IMG/VR virus record: IMGVR_UViG_3300049793_000099
Span: 32,911 to 96,910 of that record
DNA: 64,000 nucleotides
Source of the DNA: a virus
Strand: one strand, 5' to 3'
Under the pieces are notes generated by a model that was given only the letters and a program-made list of their open reading frames with translations, was not told the DNA's origin and searched no databases. Every line of letters begins with the position of its first letter. The stretch's first letter is position 1. Of this stretch, positions 31,097 through 42,626 are shown piece by piece. The position numbers were made by a program, and so were the translations under genes.

Positions 31097-32905
31097 TTAA
31101 TGTTCCATTATTAATTGCATTTGTTGAATAAATTGTTCATTATTCATTTTTGGAGATTCTTGATAACCATCCATTTGTATTTGAAATGTATTATCATCAT
31201 TAACTTTAACTTTAGCTTTAGATAACTCTTTACTTCCTGAATATTTACCAGTAGGATTAACCCATTCTCCTAAATTATTAAGTCCTGATTTATAAGTTTG
31301 ATTAATCTCTTGCATTTTTCTAAATGTAGGATCTTTCATTTCATTAGGAGTTCTACTAATAACTACATTAGCTTTAACATTTCCATCTTTATCTAAAATT
31401 TGAGCACGATGTGCCATTGTAGATTGTTCAAATTTATTTTCAAAACCATAATTACTATAATTTATAGGAGATTCTACACCTAAATAATCAACTTTATCTC
31501 CTGTTTCAAATTTAACTTTTTTACCAGTTTCTACATCAATCATAGTTCTAAGTGGAGAACCATCTTCAGTTTGTCTTAAATCTTGAGTTAACGTTCTATT
31601 TCTTGAAGTTTGATCTTTAGATGCTAAATTACCTGAAAATAATTTATTATCAATAGCTACATCTGCTCTAATAATATCTGATGCAACTGTTGGAAATTTC
31701 ATATGGTTTTTCATATAAAATCCAATTTTTTCAGCATTATCTGTACTATTTAAATCTGCATTTTCAGAAAGTTTTCCTGATTTTATTAATCTTTTTGCGG
31801 CAGTTTCATAAAATTTTTGTTGCATTGGAGATAAAACATCTTTATAAGTTTGTACACCTGATTTTTGAGGTGTATAACCACCACTTGTACCCATTGTAAC
31901 TGCAGAACCAACACCACCAGTATTTCCTAATGTGCTACCAATTTTAGTAAAATTAATTTCTCCAGTATCTTTATCTAAATTTTTAATAGTACTTGGATCT
32001 TGTATCGCATCATTAAATATCGAACCTTTAATGTTTCCATCTTTAGTTGGTTTAGGTGCTGCAATGTATTGAGCATTTTCACCTCTATTATCAATAACTT
32101 TATTAGATAACATACTATTAATTCCTGAAGTAAGTTGGTTATATATATTTTGTGTATTATCACCTTCGAACTTAATAGAATCTTGCCATTCTTTACTAGC
32201 TAATCTTTGATTAACAAGATTTTGTGCAGATTGTAAATTAGGTTTATTTGAAGTTTCAATTCTTCTACCACTTCTATCTACCATAACCATTCCTCCATCA
32301 GGACTTGGTTGAAAACTATATCCAGAAGCTTTCATTTCACCCACAACTTGTTCGCCTAATAAACTATGAACATCTTTAAGTACATCCATTACTTCAACTT
32401 TTTTAGGTGCTCCTAATTGACCTATGTTGGATATATTATTACCTTCAAAACCTGTATATTGTTTAGAAAAATTATTCCAATTAGCTAAAGCCCTTTCTCT
32501 AGACCATCCTTTATTTTTTTGAGCATCATCTAAATAATCATTAAAATTTTTAGAATAAACTTGTTTTGCTGCATTTATTTGACCTAATCTACCTGTTGGT
32601 GATATAAGATTTTGATATTCTCTATTAAGTGCTAAAAAGTCTCCTTGTGTATTTGGATTAACGCCCTCTCTACTTAATAATTCAGCTTGTGATGCTAATT
32701 TATTTTCTATTCCAGATTTAACATTTAAAGCTTCATTCATATGTACATCTAAGGGATCAACTTTAGCTAATCCTTGTCTTAACATTTCTTGTTGAGCTAT
32801 TAATTGGTCGTGTTTTTGTCGTTGCATCAAAGGTATCATCATAGTCTCTTGAAGACTTAATGGATTGAAATTTGAAACACTACCGTTGTCGTAACGATTT
32901 GCCAT
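31097..32905 (-). CDS. virion cargo/internal protein, 602 aa
   Basis: A Gln/Asn-rich protein with a helical first 150 residues, including LQETMMIPLMQRQKHDQLIAQ in pieces, that look like a coiled-coil or capsid-binding region. A Gly-rich middle (about residues 320-350, GGVGSAVTMGTSGGY) follows, then a beta-rich end. I recognise it only as the type of conserved gene lying between cargo genes in crAss-like phages. Its start shares one base with the stop of the 863-residue gene, and its stop is a base from the next gene. Confidence 0.6.
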   Translation of the reverse strand: MANRYDNGSVSNFNPLSLQETMMIPLMQRQKHDQLIAQQEMLRQGLAKVDPLDVHMNEALNVKSGIENKLASQAELLSREGVNPNTQGDFLALNREYQNLISPTGRLGQINAAKQVYSKNFNDYLDDAQKNKGWSRERALANWNNFSKQYTGFEGNNISNIGQLGAPKKVEVMDVLKDVHSLLGEQVVGEMKASGYSFQPSPDGGMVMVDRSGRRIETSNKPNLQSAQNLVNQRLASKEWQDSIKFEGDNTQNIYNQLTSGINSMLSNKVIDNRGENAQYIAAPKPTKDGNIKGSIFNDAIQDPSTIKNLDKDTGEINFTKIGSTLGNTGGVGSAVTMGTSGGYTPQKSGVQTYKDVLSPMQQKFYETAAKRLIKSGKLSENADLNSTDNAEKIGFYMKNHMKFPTVASDIIRADVAIDNKLFSGNLASKDQTSRNRTLTQDLRQTEDGSPLRTMIDVETGKKVKFETGDKVDYLGVESPINYSNYGFENKFEQSTMAHRAQILDKDGNVKANVVISRTPNEMKDPTFRKMQEINQTYKSGLNNLGEWVNPTGKYSGSKELSKAKVKVNDDNTFQIQMDGYQESPKMNNEQFIQQMQLIMEH

Positions 32906-35496
32906 TATTTTCCTTTATTTTTTAATAAGTAACCACCTAAAGCTTTTTTAGATGTACTATCTGTTAATACTCCTGCTTTTTCAGCAGCAGCTTTAATTTC
33001 TGCTGGTGTAGCATTGGGATTAGTTTTTTGATATTCTCCAAGCCAACTATAACCTGTTGTAGTTTTAGCTATTTTTTTATAAATTTCTTCTTTACCAACT
33101 TCACCGATATCATTACCAATTGCAGATATATATTTAGATTTTTCATTACGATAAGCTGCTGAATTTCTATCATTAATATCTAATTCCGAATTAGATTGTT
33201 GTAGATTAGTTTGATCAACACCTAAATTAAATTGTTGAGCAACAGCCTCTTGTTGTCTGTTTTGAGCTTCGGCATTCATATAAGCATTCGATAAAGCTTT
33301 AGTTTTATTTAATTGAGAACCTAATATTGCATTTCTAACAACCCCTTGTGATGCACCTGATTGTTGAATTGCAGAATTAGTATTATTTAACTCTTGATTA
33401 ACAATATTTTGTTGCTGAGCCATATCTACATAACTAGGTTTGTATCTATTATCAAGTCTACTAAGTCTAATTCCATTTGGTTTTTTAAGTTTAGCTAATT
33501 GATAAGCATTTGCTGCAATTGGTGCATATCTTGCTATATTGCCAGCATTATTATTTATATAATTCCCAACTTTACTTGCATTGTATTCTAACATATCTAA
33601 ATTAGAAGGTCCTGGCGTAGTAATTCTATTTGCATTTGAAATATCAACAATTGGTTGTGTTCCAATTGTATAAGGTGTTGTTGCTGAAGCAGGTTTTAAG
33701 AAATTTTGTAAACCATTTGGATCTTGATTTCTTGCATTTAATTTTAAATTTTCATAATAATCTCCTCCATCAGCCATTTGTTTAAGTTTACCACCATATG
33801 CAGCATAGTTGATATTATCTTTTGAATTATTAGAAGCTATAGTATTAATTGCTTTTGTAATTTTATCATTATCATATGTTTGATAGAAATTCTCTGATTC
33901 TAAACCTTTATCTTTAATCCTTTGTTCTAAATCTTTTTGATTTATTGTTTCTCCAGGTTTCATACCCAACTTAATTCTAAGTTGATGAAAATTTCCATAA
34001 GATTCTTCAGGAGTGTTCATATATCTTTTAACTACATTAGGTGCATTCTTAGTTTTTTGTTCAAAAGGGGAACCTAATACTCGTTTAAGAGCAGATCCTA
34101 ATATTACATCTTGACCTCCAGCATGTACACGTTCGTGTTGTATTACCCCACCATCAACACCTTTTTGATATACAATTTGTTCTTGTGGAGCAGAAGTTTC
34201 GTATCCTTGAAATTCAGCTTGACTATCTTGTCCAAATAATGGATTAGCAGCACTAGTTTGTTTTATAGGAACATTAGCTCCATAATTTGTAAGATCTAAT
34301 AATCTTTTTTTATTATATCCTGTATTCTTTTCAAATTTTTTAAGTGTTGCAGGATCTTTATACCAATTTACATAATTTTTAGTAGCTTGTGCTACTGCTG
34401 GATCATCTATTTTAGGAATTGTTATATTATCACTTGTAGGTATACTTCTTGAAAGTTTTTGATTAAACTCTTTAATTGGAGATAAAATTAACGTATCACC
34501 ATTTCTTCTAATATCTTTTTTAGGTGGATCTATTTCACCACCTAAAGCATATTGATCTGAAAATTGATTGTTATATGTTTGTGCATTTTTAGCTAAATAT
34601 CTATTTTCAGCTCTTTCTCTAGATTTACCTGCGATAACACCACTAATAAATGGCGCTGCTAACGATAGTCCTTTTTCAAATTGTGTAGAATCTTTACTTT
34701 GTAGCACCTCTCTTTGTCCTGCAGAAGGATCAAAAAGTCCTGTAGATACATCCCTACCTTTTTCTCCTCCAACAGCCTCTCCAGCAGCTAATAATCCTTT
34801 TTTCGCTCCAAATATTAATCCTGCAATAGGAAACACACTTGCTACAGCTTTAGTTGCACTATCATACGCTTGATCTTGACCTTTAAGTTTAGGATTAAAT
34901 GTATATTTTTTATCTAATGCAGATGATGGTAAACTTGCTAAACTATCCCCTACTGCAGTTCCTATTGCACCTGCAGTAGACGAAACTCCTGTACCAGAAG
35001 AAGTATTGTCGGTTGTTCCTAATTTTGTAGATTCTAGTGCATTATCACTTGTATTGATTGTTAATCCACCACCAAACATCTGTTTTCTATATCCACCAAA
35101 TGCCATTTGACTCATTCCGTCAGGAGTTTCGGAATAATTTTGTTGTTCCATTTCAGGTTCTTGAGGTTTCATAAATTCCTGAGCTTCTGCTATTTTAGAT
35201 AACATTGAATCTTTAGTAGATTGTGAAATTTTATCATTTCTACCTTTAAATTTATTATCTATAAACTTAGTAGCATCTGCTACAGATTTACCAATTAAAG
35301 ATTTAGGTAGATTATATTGGGATACACTATTTTCATCTAAAAATATTCTATTGCTATATACGAAATTATTTTGCTTTGTCTCATTTTCTTCTACACTATT
35401 ATTATTACCGATAGGAATTCCTCCCAAAGGATTTTGAGAATGTAAACCACCTGTATCAAATCGAGTAAGGTCTCCACCTTGTGCATATCTGCTCAT
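32905..35496 (-). CDS. virion cargo protein with HExxH motif and repeated A-x-G-G tags
   Basis: This 863-residue protein opens the cargo operon. A zinc-peptidase-like motif QHERVH places HExxH at 454-458, followed about 45 residues later by NTPEESYG as a possible third ligand. Short Gly-Gly tags recur: YAQGGDL (4-10), MAFGGY (131-136), YALGGEI (316-322), YAAYGG (564-569), MADGGDY shortly after, and KALGGYL at the C-terminus. They may be cleavage or packing signals. Residues 155-275 are Gly/Ala/Ser-rich with a hydrophobic segment, and the C-terminal third is Gln/Asn-rich and helical. A promoter-like element lies just upstream. Peptidase activity is a guess from five residues; virion role comes from position. 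Confidence 0.6.
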   Translation of the reverse strand: MSRYAQGGDLTRFDTGGLHSQNPLGGIPIGNNNSVEENETKQNNFVYSNRIFLDENSVSQYNLPKSLIGKSVADATKFIDNKFKGRNDKISQSTKDSMLSKIAEAQEFMKPQEPEMEQQNYSETPDGMSQMAFGGYRKQMFGGGLTINTSDNALESTKLGTTDNTSSGTGVSSTAGAIGTAVGDSLASLPSSALDKKYTFNPKLKGQDQAYDSATKAVASVFPIAGLIFGAKKGLLAAGEAVGGEKGRDVSTGLFDPSAGQREVLQSKDSTQFEKGLSLAAPFISGVIAGKSRERAENRYLAKNAQTYNNQFSDQYALGGEIDPPKKDIRRNGDTLILSPIKEFNQKLSRSIPTSDNITIPKIDDPAVAQATKNYVNWYKDPATLKKFEKNTGYNKKRLLDLTNYGANVPIKQTSAANPLFGQDSQAEFQGYETSAPQEQIVYQKGVDGGVIQHERVHAGGQDVILGSALKRVLGSPFEQKTKNAPNVVKRYMNTPEESYGNFHQLRIKLGMKPGETINQKDLEQRIKDKGLESENFYQTYDNDKITKAINTIASNNSKDNINYAAYGGKLKQMADGGDYYENLKLNARNQDPNGLQNFLKPASATTPYTIGTQPIVDISNANRITTPGPSNLDMLEYNASKVGNYINNNAGNIARYAPIAANAYQLAKLKKPNGIRLSRLDNRYKPSYVDMAQQQNIVNQELNNTNSAIQQSGASQGVVRNAILGSQLNKTKALSNAYMNAEAQNRQQEAVAQQFNLGVDQTNLQQSNSELDINDRNSAAYRNEKSKYISAIGNDIGEVGKEEIYKKIAKTTTGYSWLGEYQKTNPNATPAEIKAAAEKAGVLTDSTSKKALGGYLLKNKGK

Positions 35497-35517
35497 ATTA
35501 TATGTTTTTTATATATT

Positions 35518-35539
35518 ATCTTTGTAGGTTTACAAAGAT
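35518..35539. promoter_or_regulatory. perfect palindrome over the cargo-operon promoter
   Basis: ATCTTTGTA-GGTT-TACAAAGAT is a 9-base-pair perfect inverted repeat with a 4-base centre. Each arm contains TATCTTTG when the flanking base is counted, so a -7 box faces outwards on each strand. It lies around the expected transcription start of the cargo operon, a good place for an operator. Confidence 0.55.
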
Positions 35540-35564
35540 AGACTATTTTTAAATTTATTCCAAA
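35533..35564 (-). promoter_or_regulatory. Bacteroidetes-type promoter of the giant cargo operon
   Basis: On the minus strand TTTG (35564-35561) is followed after exactly 20 bases by TATCTTTG (35540-35533). This fits the Bacteroidetes primary sigma consensus TTTG, 19-21 bases, TAnnTTTG. The start codon at 35496 lies about 37 bases downstream, leaving a short leader. The terminator of the upstream tail gene lies just before it. Confidence 0.7.
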
Positions 35565-35588: not shown

Positions 35589-35634
35589 AAAAAAAGGTAT
35601 AGATTCTATTAATTAAAATATTATCTACACCTTT
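35589..35634 (-). terminator. terminator after the large tail protein gene
   Basis: AAAGGTATAGAT (35593-35604) pairs with ATCTACACCTTT (35623-35634). The single A/C mismatch on the plus strand becomes a G-U pair in the minus-strand RNA, and seven A (35589-35595) give the U-run. It ends the transcript of the gene finishing at 35644. Confidence 0.75.
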
Positions 35635-35643
35635 ATTGTTGTT

Positions 35644-38600
35644 TTACACACTATAACTGATAATTATATCATGCAGTATTAATTTATAATTAGAGGTATT
35701 ATCAAATTGTAATACTAATTTAACCCAAGGATTTCTAATTCTTTCTCTAGAATTTTGATTACGAGGTAGAATAGCATTCCAATCTCTAAACTTTCTCCTA
35801 AGATTTGAATTTCTACTCAATGTTAATGGTATTAAGCCAGAATCCTGATATTCATTATAAAGTCTAATTTTAGTTAATGTTTTATCGGGTTGATCTACAT
35901 CATTTAAATATACTTCAGATTTATACATTATATTGTCAAATACAGTATCTAAATTTGAATCAGGATTAACATTTAATATTACATAAGAAGGATAATTTAT
36001 ACCATAAAAATTATTATAATTTCCTTCATATTGACGATATATCGATTTTAAATTAGGATTAGTTGTAATAAAATATTGACCTTTACTTATATACATGCTT
36101 GGTAAATAATCATAAAAAGATATAAATTGATCTCTAGATTCATTAAAAGATAATGTGAATGATTCTTCACTATTTAAGAATGTCATAAAAACATCATTAT
36201 TAATATAATCAAAACCTGCCGAAATACCTTGTTTAATTAAAGGATTGTTTATTTTAAGACCTTCTAATTCAATATTTTTAATAAAGTATGTATGCATACC
36301 TTTAGTATCAGATAAACCGTTTATTTGACTTTTAAAAACACAAAATGCTTTATTTAATAAATCAAAATAATATATACCTTGAGATGTTGAAACAACACTC
36401 CATTTATTTAATGTACCACTATCTGTTGAAATATATTGATATCTATCAAGAACACTACCAGTACCTAATTGTACAGCTAAACCATCACTACCTGTAATTT
36501 GAACTCTAGGACTTATAGATATAAAAGAAAAAGCTTTATCTTGAATACAATATGTTTCATCATTAAAACTAGTTAAACTATTAATTGGTCCATGTTTACC
36601 ATCTAATGTCATTATTTCATTAGGTAATATATCTGTCCAATTATCTATAAGCTCTCCTGCTGATTTTAATTTTGTTGTAATAATATTTGTATCTAAACTA
36701 TTTATTTTTTTAATATTATAATTTAAACCTGTTCGTTGTATTAAATCTGGAACTTGGGAATATACTTTATTATATTTATGATATTCACTATCAATAGGTT
36801 GAAATCTAGAATCCCATGGTAATAAACTTAAATCATTTCTATTTGGTAAATCTATTGTAGTTTCAGTTAAAAAATTAACAATTTCTTCTAATACATAAAC
36901 ACCTTCTGCAATATCATTACTATCTGTACGTACCACCCTAAGAAATTTAAATCCATTTACAAATGTATCGCCTGGTGAGTCAATTAATATTGAAGGATTT
37001 AAACTATCAAACTCTACGAATTCTCCAATTTCAATATAGTTACTACGTTTTTTATCTTCATAACTATTACCTCCATAAATATTACCTAAATAGATCTCAG
37101 AATCACCTTTAACAAGTTCTCCAATTAAACCATTATTGTCACCACTAAGTCCTGCACTTACACACATTGATTCAAGTAATGGTCTATTAAAATGTTCAAT
37201 TGAAGAATCATCTGAACCAGTAACTAATGTTAAACATCTATTACCATAAGATCTTATAGAGATAATTCTTCTACCATATTTACCATCATCATCATAAAAA
37301 GTATCACCATCAGTTAATACACTTTCTAATGAATTTATATATCTATAATTAGGATCGTTATTGTAATTTGTACCTGCTTGACCTTTTTCAGTAATTTCAG
37401 GTTTACCATATATATCTATATATAATGGTGTTGGAGATTTTATATAATTAGTATGTACTCCTAAATCTGGATTAACATCTCCATATTCTCTATTAAACAT
37501 TGAGTGTATTACTCTATCTGCATTACTTACCCCAGGATGAGATATTAAACCTCTATCAAGAATATTATCCACATTTCCTTCACCAATATCTATTATAGTT
37601 TGATCAGTTACTGAATAATTAGGAGATATACCGTTAAAAGCCTTCCCTTCGATTGTAATTACATCGTCATCTGAATATCTTCTCAACCATGAACTATTAT
37701 AACTATTTTTTAACGAACCTTTTATCTTAAGTTTGAGATTATCTGAAATAGATATTGATTCGTTAAATAATATTTCTGGAGAATATAATTGTAACATTGA
37801 ATTAAACTGATATAACCTTCCAGAAACATCTGAATCACCATAATAACTAAGTTGAACTTCAGTATCTGGCGAATCTCTATTTTCATTCATCAATCTTAAA
37901 TGTTCGGCTTTACGAAGAGGTTGTGTATTACCGTTTAAAGTTGTATTATTGCAATTTCTAACAAGTATATTGGGTAATTTAGGTAAATTGTTTACAATAG
38001 GTAAAGTTGGAGTTGCGCTATTATCTGTAGTTTTAAAATCAATCATCATGGGTGTTAATAATCCATTTGAAACGATAGTTCTATCACTTAATTTTCTTTC
38101 AGCGATTATCACTTTATATCCAGTAGGGATATCGTATATTGAATCAAATAAATTAGTAGATAACCAAGTAAAAAAAGCAGGCTTTAATGTAAGTTTAAAG
38201 GTATTGTAATTACCTGCTAAATTACCATCTCTAGCTTTAATATCTGCAATCCATTTAGGTTGTGATATTTGACCATAGGCATTAAAAAATTCAATACCTA
38301 TTCGATATATTTCATCATCTTTAAAATATTTACCTTTCTTATTGTATATAGTGGTTTGAGTAAGTTCGTAAGAAATGTATTTACCTTCTCCTCCAAATGT
38401 TATACCATCTTTTTGAAATTTATATACATTAGGGTGTAAATTTACACTATCATGTTTGATAAGTTCACTGTTATCATAATCAGCATCGGTAGTTATTGTA
38501 AATAATGTACCATCTGGTACTCCAGCAGTTAATTTTAAATCTTTATATATTTCTGCTATATTTGAAGAATTGTAAGAGTAAGCTCGAGTATCTAAATCAA

Positions 38601-39663
38601 CATCAAAATTAATTTCTTTATAGTTTGCAAAAAATAATCTATTAAATTTTGTATTTATATGCTTTGGAATAATAATATCGGATCCTAGAAATATAAATTC
38701 CTCTAGAGATAATGTACTAATTACTATACCATCATCAAATATTTCTATACTACCATTAGAAGGAATACTCCTATCGTCTATTAACGATATACTTGGTACT
38801 TCATTGTAAGAAGTGTATTTAATAGCGTATACTTTAATATTTGTATAAGTATTATCTAAATTATCGATTAAAACAATTGGTGCAGATCCTACAAACTCAT
38901 TTACAGTACCACCACCAAATATACCTCTATCAAGAGGTACTAGTTTACTTAAAGGACTTATTTTTGTTTGAGAAGAATTAATACGATATAAATTATAAGC
39001 GTATTGTATCATACCTGCGGTATGTACGCCACCAGTAGTAATATCTGTTATAATAGGTTGTTTTAAAGTTGTTTTACCAACCATATCTATAACATTTTGA
39101 GAAACATCGATTAATTCTTCAAGATCTTGATTAGCAATTGAATGTTCAATGTTAATGAACCTCATTTGACTTATACCATCAACCCAATAAACTTTATCAA
39201 TAAATTCATTTTCAAAATTATTAATTGTTTGAATTGGGTTGTTAATTGAGAAATTTAGATTTCTAAGATATAATAAAGTAATCTCGTATGTTTCATAATC
39301 AACTTTCCAAATACAATCGAATCCTGTATTATCTGTAGTAAATAATATAATATATTTTCTACTGTTTGAATAACCAATTATAACTTGATCTCCACTTTGA
39401 CCTTCATAATCAATTTCATCATTAATATAAGATAATGTTTTATCACCATAACTAATTATTTTAATATCATAATCTATTATAGGTACTGGGATAGTTAAAA
39501 TTAAAGAATTACCTTTTTCATTTGTAACAGACCCCAAACTTTGTGAATCTGTTGCATTAATTCTAATATTTTTTCCTTCATAATAAAAATTTGGTTGATA
39601 TTGAGAAGAGGTAGTGTCCTGATTCATTCCATTATACGAATGTTTTGTTTGTTTATTCGTCAT
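35644..39663 (-). CDS. large tail protein (tail hub/nozzle or stabilisation protein, crAss-like)
   Basis: The N-terminus MTNKQTKHSYNGMNQDTT followed by QYQPNFYYEGKNIRI is the opening of the large tail protein that in crAss-like phages follows the connector genes and precedes the cargo genes; related podovirus proteins form the end of the short tail (P22 gp10/T7 gp12 type). The 1339-residue chain is beta-rich throughout, with many short Asn/Asp turns and no membrane segment. It probably forms the distal tube or hub through which DNA and cargo leave. It lies 6 bases after a connector gene and is closed by its own terminator. The exact tail position is inferred. Confidence 0.65.
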   Translation of the reverse strand: MTNKQTKHSYNGMNQDTTSSQYQPNFYYEGKNIRINATDSQSLGSVTNEKGNSLILTIPVPIIDYDIKIISYGDKTLSYINDEIDYEGQSGDQVIIGYSNSRKYIILFTTDNTGFDCIWKVDYETYEITLLYLRNLNFSINNPIQTINNFENEFIDKVYWVDGISQMRFINIEHSIANQDLEELIDVSQNVIDMVGKTTLKQPIITDITTGGVHTAGMIQYAYNLYRINSSQTKISPLSKLVPLDRGIFGGGTVNEFVGSAPIVLIDNLDNTYTNIKVYAIKYTSYNEVPSISLIDDRSIPSNGSIEIFDDGIVISTLSLEEFIFLGSDIIIPKHINTKFNRLFFANYKEINFDVDLDTRAYSYNSSNIAEIYKDLKLTAGVPDGTLFTITTDADYDNSELIKHDSVNLHPNVYKFQKDGITFGGEGKYISYELTQTTIYNKKGKYFKDDEIYRIGIEFFNAYGQISQPKWIADIKARDGNLAGNYNTFKLTLKPAFFTWLSTNLFDSIYDIPTGYKVIIAERKLSDRTIVSNGLLTPMMIDFKTTDNSATPTLPIVNNLPKLPNILVRNCNNTTLNGNTQPLRKAEHLRLMNENRDSPDTEVQLSYYGDSDVSGRLYQFNSMLQLYSPEILFNESISISDNLKLKIKGSLKNSYNSSWLRRYSDDDVITIEGKAFNGISPNYSVTDQTIIDIGEGNVDNILDRGLISHPGVSNADRVIHSMFNREYGDVNPDLGVHTNYIKSPTPLYIDIYGKPEITEKGQAGTNYNNDPNYRYINSLESVLTDGDTFYDDDGKYGRRIISIRSYGNRCLTLVTGSDDSSIEHFNRPLLESMCVSAGLSGDNNGLIGELVKGDSEIYLGNIYGGNSYEDKKRSNYIEIGEFVEFDSLNPSILIDSPGDTFVNGFKFLRVVRTDSNDIAEGVYVLEEIVNFLTETTIDLPNRNDLSLLPWDSRFQPIDSEYHKYNKVYSQVPDLIQRTGLNYNIKKINSLDTNIITTKLKSAGELIDNWTDILPNEIMTLDGKHGPINSLTSFNDETYCIQDKAFSFISISPRVQITGSDGLAVQLGTGSVLDRYQYISTDSGTLNKWSVVSTSQGIYYFDLLNKAFCVFKSQINGLSDTKGMHTYFIKNIELEGLKINNPLIKQGISAGFDYINNDVFMTFLNSEESFTLSFNESRDQFISFYDYLPSMYISKGQYFITTNPNLKSIYRQYEGNYNNFYGINYPSYVILNVNPDSNLDTVFDNIMYKSEVYLNDVDQPDKTLTKIRLYNEYQDSGLIPLTLSRNSNLRRKFRDWNAILPRNQNSRERIRNPWVKLVLQFDNTSNYKLILHDIIISYSV

Positions 39664-41637: not shown

Positions 41638-42570
41638 TTATAAATTCATCATTATATTTATTGGTACTTCACCTTGAAGAACTACTCCACATGCTATTGC
41701 GGGTTTAGGACCTTCTTTACCATAAGCCATTGCATAAGATTTATGATCAATACCGCATCCTACTTGCATTCCAAATAGTTTAAATTTAGCACCTACGCAC
41801 CAATCAATATAAGCTTGACTATGTAAATGACCTTGTACAATAGATTGTAAATCTCTACGAACTCTCGCTCTTGCAGTACCACCTTCGCCGTGAATGTATA
41901 ATACATCATCTATTTCAACTGATTCTGTAAAATTCCAATCTGGAGTTCCTAATACTTCAGCATAATCTTTAATCCATAGTTTAGACAGTCCGCTAGAATA
42001 AGCTTTACGCATTATCAATCTATCATGGTTACCTATAATTACTGTTGCTTTTGGAAAAGCTTTGTACCATTCTTTAATACGTTGTATAGCCATTTTAAGC
42101 TCTTGTCCAGCACTATATCCATCTGGATCAGTCTCATGATACGAACTTGCATGATTGTCTATTATATCACCTATAAATACCACTTCATTACATTTATATT
42201 TAGTATAAGTTTCTATACAATGAGATAAATAATTATCTAAACAAAATGGTTCATGTAAATCTCCAATAACTAAAACATTTTTACCAGATTTAAATTTTTT
42301 AACAAAAGATTCATCTGGAGTTAATGGATATTCTTGATGCTTAAAAGCATTCCTAAATACATCTTGTGAAGATTTAAAATCTTTATCTAATATAACTTTA
42401 AATGTCTCATGTCCTTTTCCAGGTTTAGATTTAAATTCTCTACGAATTTCACCTAGTGCTCGATAACATAAATTTTCATCACAATCTAATATTGTAGATA
42501 ATTTCTTGGAACCATATTTTATGTAACCCTGTTTTCCACGTAAAAATTCTTTAATATTTTCTAGTGTCAT
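41638..42570 (-). CDS. calcineurin-like metallophosphoesterase with N-terminal wHTH-like region
   Basis: All metal motifs are present in order: GDLHE (Asp104, His106), GDIIDNH (Asp135), GNHD (Asn181, His182), HGEGG (His227) and GHLH (His248, His250). Before them lies an 80-residue basic region that reads like a winged-helix domain (KLSTILDCDENLCYRALGEIRREF), which may bind DNA. Such enzymes hydrolyse phosphodiesters or phosphomonoesters, and crAss-like phages carry them beside structural genes; the substrate is unknown. The gene is an island with its own promoter-like element and terminator, differing from the plus-strand homologue, which is shorter and broken. Confidence 0.88.
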   Translation of the reverse strand: MTLENIKEFLRGKQGYIKYGSKKLSTILDCDENLCYRALGEIRREFKSKPGKGHETFKVILDKDFKSSQDVFRNAFKHQEYPLTPDESFVKKFKSGKNVLVIGDLHEPFCLDNYLSHCIETYTKYKCNEVVFIGDIIDNHASSYHETDPDGYSAGQELKMAIQRIKEWYKAFPKATVIIGNHDRLIMRKAYSSGLSKLWIKDYAEVLGTPDWNFTESVEIDDVLYIHGEGGTARARVRRDLQSIVQGHLHSQAYIDWCVGAKFKLFGMQVGCGIDHKSYAMAYGKEGPKPAIACGVVLQGEVPINIMMNL

Positions 42571-42594: not shown

Positions 42595-42626
42595 CAAAGA
42601 TAATAAAATATTTTATAAATTCCTAA
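42595..42626 (-). promoter_or_regulatory. Bacteroidetes-type promoter of the phosphoesterase gene
   Basis: On the minus strand TTAG (42626-42623, one change from TTTG plus order) is followed after 20 bases by an exact TATCTTTG (42602-42595). The start codon at 42570 leaves a leader of roughly 20 bases. The -7 box equals that of the cargo promoter. Confidence 0.55.

Follow-up and report, generated by a model that had tools for sequence, protein, structure and literature searches.

What does a palindrome do when it is centred on the predicted start site of a phage promoter? The question arises in the window, a stretch of 64,000 nt from a 96,910-base phage record, at the promoter of a cargo operon. 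A major head protein is encoded, and Pfam identified the crAss ring proteins PF24228 and PF25702 in the window; the source phage is crAss-like. Packaging requires cargo proteins to be ready in time, among them the RNA polymerase with which the next infection starts, and their timing in crAss-like phages is not settled. A transcription study of phi14:2 was reportedly carried out by Drobysheva et al. The dyad offers a concrete 24-base target for mutation. Other hairpin arrangements seem to occupy this boundary in related cargo promoters, so that the question can be compared from phage to phage. In PhicrAss001, the RNA-polymerase genes are split between middle and late transcription, for a reason that a passage of the source calls unclear (PMC8375218). 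Among the literature matches listed, including excerpts of PMC8375218, PMC10136315 and PMC10172136, no promoter or palindrome is described at this place, and the promoter of phi14:2 may have been mapped earlier.

The cargo promoter and its dyad

The site is flanked by long genes on the minus strand. In the direction of transcription, the end of a 1339-aa gene is followed by a terminator, the elements TTTGGAAT and TATCTTTG, a leader of about 32 nt and the cargo ATG at 35496. The upstream gene (35644-39663, minus strand) encodes a virion structural protein homologous to phi14:2 g071 (phrog_28748, 3.3e-275). The downstream gene (32905-35496, minus strand) encodes cargo protein 1 of 863 aa, which matches PF25725 crAss_CARG1 (E 9.6e-16), in agreement with the original prediction that the palindrome sits at the cargo promoter. 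Between the tail gene and the promoter, folding and alignment identified an intrinsic terminator (35589-35634, minus strand) with a 12-bp stem and seven T. A 71-nt stretch folds at -17.1 kcal/mol (z -4.5) and the stem and T run are kept in all seven aligned sequences; this terminator was absent from the list produced by a simple consensus terminator scan. Rfam gave no match in the window at the gathering score, and a search of genome contigs for host genomes using the cargo protein found no relative.

Promoters of the Bacteroidetes primary sigma factor are characterised by the -7 element TAnnTTTG and the -33 element TTTG (excerpts of PMC7366714 and PMC9723704). Both are present upstream of the cargo start codon. 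The box TATCTTTG at 35533-35540 (minus strand, read from 35540 to 35533) follows the -7 consensus, and the -33 element TTTGGAAT (35557-35564, minus strand), recognised from the sequence and from the alignment with relatives, contains TTTG at 35561-35564. Exactly 20 bases lie between this TTTG and the -7 box, 16 of them after the end of TTTGGAAT. This is the usual distance, and the minus-strand copy can be read as a -7 box, as had been proposed. Near relatives carry CTAGGAAT or TTAGGAAT in place of TTTGGAAT. The -7 consensus of F. psychrophilum spans -12 to -5 (according to a passage of PMC9723704), and in F. johnsoniae 4 or 5 nt separate the -7 element from the transcription start (according to excerpts of PMC6847099). 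The position of the -7 box thus predicts transcription to start at 35528 (minus strand), with a 32-nt leader before the cargo ATG.

The palindrome itself (35517-35540, minus strand) was characterised by sequence, folding and comparison with relatives. Its perfect 10-bp arms (35531-35540 and 35517-35526) enclose an unpaired 4-nt centre (35527-35530). The plus strand reads TATCTTTGTA-GGTT-TACAAAGATA, i.e. TATCTTTG is found on both strands, and the minus strand reads TATCTTTGTA-AACC-TACAAAGATA with the -7 box in its left arm. The palindrome is real, but it is not the perfect 22-mer initially described, its actual shape being 10 + 4 + 10 = 24 bases. As an RNA stem it has a predicted energy of -9.7 kcal/mol, and none of 200 shuffles was equally good. 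If the -7 box occupies -12 to -5, as inferred from F. psychrophilum (a passage of PMC9723704), the dyad would be centred between -1 and +1.

Chance expectation and sampling of relatives

Within the window, the exact shape of the dyad arose by chance 0.01 times per shuffle, in a test built on the pattern already found. Bare -33/-7 matches numbered 9 against 6.05 expected, which is not significant because the sequence is so AT-rich, and the genome carries longer perfect inverted repeats than the dyad, for example one of 16 bp at L002 12403-12440 (arms 6 nt apart, perhaps a terminator). The same intergenic gap was therefore gathered from relatives, and the significance of the dyad, as far as sequence can tell, comes from this comparison. 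A search for the palindrome elsewhere in the genome, which the original prediction had suggested, recovered no second copy in the window at up to three mismatches and none in the 96,910-base record at up to two.

Relatives were loci encoding a homologue of the upstream 1339-aa protein (13 and 49, overlapping). L020 was added from a palindrome scan and is biased because it was collected through its own dyad. After near-copies and contigs ending too early had been dropped, 39 cargo promoters were left. The dropped loci comprise near-copies or loci from the same record (L005, L010, L015, L016, L017, L018, L023, L024, L025 and L031), two in which a freer box search found no promoter (L034 and L035), those whose match or contig stops short of the gap (L044, L045, L046, L058, L059 and L062) and those with 28% identity that lay outside the promoter search (L061, L063, L064 and L065). 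Near-copies still inside the 39 are L013/L027, L028/L029, L039/L051 and L040/L041. L066 is a later find and enters only the accessibility, reverse-box and looser-stem counts. Terminator groups were assigned by eye from printed sequences.

The -7 boxes of the 39 promoters, chosen by the pattern TAnnTT[TG][GAC], read TAnnTTTG in 35 cases, TATATTTA in two and TATNTTGC in two. The spacing between -33 and -7 is 20 in 38 of the 39, where selection allowed only 19 or 20 and favoured 20. A freer box search gave mostly 20 too, with another box ranked first, or the box used here unlisted, in L004, L020, L022, L026, L037 and L014. CTAG replaces the TTTG of the window's -33 element at the same place in L004, L020, L022, L026 and L037, followed by the same GAAT. 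Late genes of crAss-like phages are thought to be transcribed by the host RNA polymerase (according to a passage of PMC10136315), which fits a host-type cargo promoter. Judging from these elements, the promoter of the cargo operon seems best explained as a host-sigma-type late promoter.

The dyad accompanies an upstream terminator

With at least 7 of 8 pairs required, 11 of the 39 cargo promoters repeat the -7 box as a mirror copy spaced as in the window; when the window and L020 are left out, 9 of 37 do. Shuffled downstream DNA gave 0.19 such copies on average and a maximum of three in 500 shuffles. For comparison we used a promoter of the same type that lies about 7 kb upstream in transcription in the same phages. 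In the window, its -7 box is at 42595-42602 on the minus strand (TTAGGAAT, spacing 20, TATCTTTG), the gene at 41638-42570 comes next, and neither the sequence nor the stem counts revealed a dyad. The comparison promoters carry T(T/A)GGAAT-like elements and mostly TA(T/C)CTTTG, and in most loci the ATG follows about 25-37 nt past the start of the -7 box. A promoter type combining (T/C)T(T/A)GGAAT-like elements, spacing 20 and TANCTTTG occurs at several genes (window 42602 minus, L002 7335 and 5382 minus).

Of the 14 cargo promoters behind a terminator, 12 have a strict stem (perfect, at least 8 bp, loop 3-8, left arm built on the -7 box), where 0.16 were expected; with the window and L020 set aside the count is 10 of 12. 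Only 2 of the 25 other cargo promoters and none of the 31 comparison promoters have such a stem. The two exceptions among terminator-preceded promoters are L053, which has a 2-nt loop and is caught by the looser count, and L009, whose 11-bp stem contains a single G-T pair (-8.7 kcal/mol). Under the looser definition (at least 7 bp, loops 2-12, L066 added) the -7 box forms the left arm in 14 of 15 terminator-preceded, 2 of 25 other cargo and 2 of 31 comparison promoters. The conservation of the palindrome in cargo promoters of related phages, which the original prediction presupposed, is thereby supported. The -7 box serves as the right arm in only 1 of the 15, so the partner arm lies mainly in transcribed DNA; in L053 it starts three bases before the predicted start. 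A search by the sequence of the terminator tail alone matched 13 stretches, three of which are unrelated DNA. The remaining ten, of which two are near-identical, all prove to be cargo promoters with the dyad. The phage phi14:2, whose host is Cellulophaga baltica, does not have this dyad.

Pairing is kept while letters and geometry change

In the 12 dyads of equal spacing, 93.3% of cells are paired. At the fourth base of the -7 box, six of them have a C-G pair, five A-T and one T-A, with no mismatch, and L066 is a second T-A case. Another pair is T-A in 11 dyads and C-G in one. When the partner was slid by 1-3 columns as a control, 33-55% of cells were paired and no double change appeared. Among the 12, 5 have an open innermost pair and 2 an open outermost pair. 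These counts refer to sequences and not to events. In a tree of the upstream protein, built by a quick method without bootstrap, the sisters L004/L013 and L020/L027 differ in arrangement, which points to recombination in the intergenic stretch. Counted by letter type there are therefore at least three independent changes, and beyond that their number is uncertain.

The loop is 3 nt long in L060 and L012, 2 in L053, and 4 or 6 elsewhere, while L048 and L050 may alternatively form a 2-nt loop. The close sisters L012 (TTTGCATT-ttt-AATGCAAA) and L053 (TCTATCTTT-gt-AAAGATAGA) keep the pairing with altered geometry. Half-site sequence and spacing are nearly constant among the near relatives of the window, but not across the family, where one spacing is the commonest (13 dyads). 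As relatives keep the halves matching despite the changes of letters, the symmetry itself seems to matter for cargo production, and we infer that the selected trait is the ability of the arms to pair, rather than one fixed binding sequence.

These results bear on the view that the dyad is only a by-product, either an inverted repeat that arose by chance in AT-rich DNA or a functionless relic of homing-endonuclease leaders. The genome is AT-rich and has further inverted repeats, and GIY-YIG genes adjoin the dyad in L012, L020 and L038. However, L004, L026 and the window all have intact arms, and in them the dyad lies between a virion gene and a gene that does not encode an endonuclease (the upstream proteins are only 63-77% identical where they match). 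The shuffles, the comparison promoters and the covariation speak against a by-product of either kind and lead us to reject a chance repeat. We regard this explanation as very improbable.

The mirrored box

The second TATCTTTG (35517-35524, plus strand) had been proposed to start antisense RNA into the tail gene, which would make the promoter bidirectional. TAnnTTTG is indeed found on both strands in the window and its near relatives, and symmetric -10 regions in E. coli often initiate both ways (excerpts of PMC12825309). However, complete elements on both strands, as a bidirectional promoter demands, were not found: none of the 13 dyads sharing this geometry, the window's among them, has a reverse -33 element. 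The best -33 match has on average 1.92 letters of 4 in reverse and 2.85 forward, with a per-locus reverse background of 1.4-3.0. In 5 of the 13 dyads the T or A of TAnnTTTG is no longer present in the reverse box, whereas pairing persists at the consensus-free base and in the inner stem. Moreover, promoters of the E. coli kind share one -10 element and their start sites are most often 18 bp apart (according to a passage of PMC12825309). Based on the sequence comparison, the mirrored box is probably no promoter, and antisense initiation from it is very unlikely.

Protein operator or nucleic-acid stem

Dyad operators overlapping a promoter start site are of a general kind. A dimeric regulator of the phage or the host, existing in lineage-specific versions, could bind the dyad (-12 to +12) and block or time the RNA polymerase. 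Such an operator would account for the perfect arms centred on the predicted start, for the one spacing common to 13 dyads from several lineages, and for the concentration of the dyad where a terminator insulates the promoter and control would matter. The single site per record fits as well: the record of the window has no further copy within one mismatch, and among 18 records searched the same holds for those of L005, L026, L037, L048, L050 and L051, with weaker matches of 2-3 mismatches existing. A lone dyad per record also speaks against a general role in early promoters such as that of N4-like hairpin promoters. Imperfect TTTGTA-N4-TACAAA dyads, possibly at other promoters, were noticed elsewhere in the records of L037 (G003:81428-81451) and L029 (G011:63376-63399). 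What an operator explains less well is that arm sequence and spacing vary between closely related loci (L012/L053 and L047/L048/L060), which one dimer would hardly tolerate. Pfam searches of 30 phage proteins, a part of the gene set, yielded no HTH regulator, and these searches together with PHROGs searches of 10 proteins encoded in the left part of the record revealed no clear transcription regulator. The sole nucleic-acid-type Pfam matches among the 30 were zinc-finger and Myb-associated models below the cut-offs. An early protein of 126 aa was found in all 18 relatives searched, dyad present or not, and so does not track the dyad; a 72-aa early protein, the one with the Myb-associated match, matched none of 18. 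Of the idea that a regulator covers the transcription start, the geometry stands, as the dyad is conserved and centred on the predicted start and anything bound there would cover it; the regulator was not found among the proteins searched.

The alternative is a stem, in the form of RNA or DNA, built from the -7 box and the first transcribed DNA. The -7 box would double as the 5' arm, the loop would cover the predicted start and the 3' arm would be the first DNA transcribed. The whole stem could form in RNA reading through the terminator from the tail operon. RNA born at the promoter would begin in the loop without the 5' arm and so stay open; the stem would therefore distinguish read-through from proper cargo transcripts. 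In the DNA version, equally compatible here, an extruded stem would conceal the -7 box. The varying letters and spacing appear to favour a nucleic-acid stem somewhat over a regulator. Taking together the geometry, the side on which the partner arm lies, the loss of consensus letters from some mirrored boxes, the likeness to T4 and the link with the terminator, we tentatively prefer the stem, which we judge quite possible though short of probable, and consider the protein operator possible but doubtful.

The logic of the stem would be that of T4 gene e and I-TevI. In T4, the late promoters of gene e, soc, 49 and I-TevI lie within the 5' strand of an RNA stem; RNA born at the promoter escapes the stem, read-through RNA does not, and the translation start is hidden (excerpts of PMC3014915). 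Similar leaders are predicted for gene e in related phages (same source, in a passage). The cargo promoter likewise has its core in the 5' strand, the predicted start in the loop and a stem kept by pairing. Hiding of the translation start in read-through RNA was not seen in the window, where the predicted accessibility of the start-codon region is 0.65 in read-through RNA and 0.61 in the promoter's own RNA. No clear drop appeared in L004, L026, L037, L047 and L048 either. Accessibility is predicted to fall in 8 of 14 loci, including all five with a GIY-YIG-type gene next (L012, L020 and L038 tested by Pfam, L053 and L066 judged by sequence), an effect due in part to the stem's own 3' arm, which there lies within the stretch averaged. 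The stem of the window ends about 21 nt before the cargo ATG (-21), and the low-structure zone of F. johnsoniae extends from -20 to +20 (according to a passage of PMC6847099). A translation lock exactly like that of T4 gene e is thus unsupported for the window. Furthermore, the dyad is rare (2 of 25) where no terminator lies upstream and read-through RNA should be commonest, the opposite of what a simple read-through lock predicts. Its presence mainly behind a terminator that blocks read-through is at least as compatible with control of initiation.

Hairpins and insertions at the cargo boundary

Strong hairpins were also observed further downstream. Of 25 cargo promoters without an upstream terminator, 21 have a best 40-nt segment of -12 kcal/mol or below within the first 110 nt; this is true of none of 13 terminator-preceded ones (L022 was too short) and of none of 32 comparison promoters. 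The median best leader hairpin is -13.15 kcal/mol in 38 cargo promoters vs -3.9 in 32 comparison promoters (Mann-Whitney p 4.6e-7, uncorrected for relatedness). In 12 loci (L007, L008, L013, L027, L028, L029, L039, L040, L041, L042, L051 and L055) the hairpin is followed by a T run before the next ATG, and so is terminator-like and lies within the cargo leader, resembling an attenuator. In L006, L030, L032, L056 and L057 a strong hairpin lies within the first codons rather than in the leader. Cargo boundaries thus appear to have a hairpin at one of three positions. A broader scheme would be a structure-gated late promoter, in which the stem, as extruded DNA over the -7 box or as a mark of read-through RNA, and not a repressor times the operon for cargo proteins and RNA polymerase, and phages lacking the dyad use a terminator-like hairpin in the leader or a hairpin in the first codons instead; we consider this scheme unlikely as it stands.

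Homing-endonuclease-like genes flank the cargo promoter in L018 (1597-2355), L020 (1883-2638 and 2782-3432), L012 (10572-11228) and L038 (4215-5051). Four of these five genes have GIY-YIG and/or NUMOD3 above the Pfam cut-off, and the one at L020 1883-2638 was likened to that of L018 by eye. As such genes are found on both sides in several relatives, the cargo gap looks like an insertion hot spot. A perfect 24-base palindrome, TATCTTTGTAATATTACAAAGATA, was noticed at L021 7741-7764, between or after genes and with no obvious promoter; none of six window proteins matched the stored stretch of L021.

Comparison with known systems

The window shares the -7 TAnnTTTG and the -33 TTTG with Bacteroidetes primary-sigma promoters, but differs from ordinary ones in the mirrored -7 box, the near-constant 20-base spacing and the extended TTTGGAAT. 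With the E. coli bidirectional promoters, as described in excerpts of PMC12825309, it has in common a promoter element with symmetry; here, however, the boxes face each other, there is one common predicted start site and no reverse -33 element. The two-fold symmetric site from -12 to +12 is shared with dyad operators over start sites, from which the window differs in that arm sequence and spacing vary between close relatives. Since the stem does not sequester the translation start, we do not class the window as a leader of the T4 gene e/I-TevI type, and unlike the T4 leaders it has a terminator in front and a promoter of the Bacteroidetes type. Shared with gene e and I-TevI are a promoter core in the 5' strand of the stem and own transcripts predicted to lack that strand.
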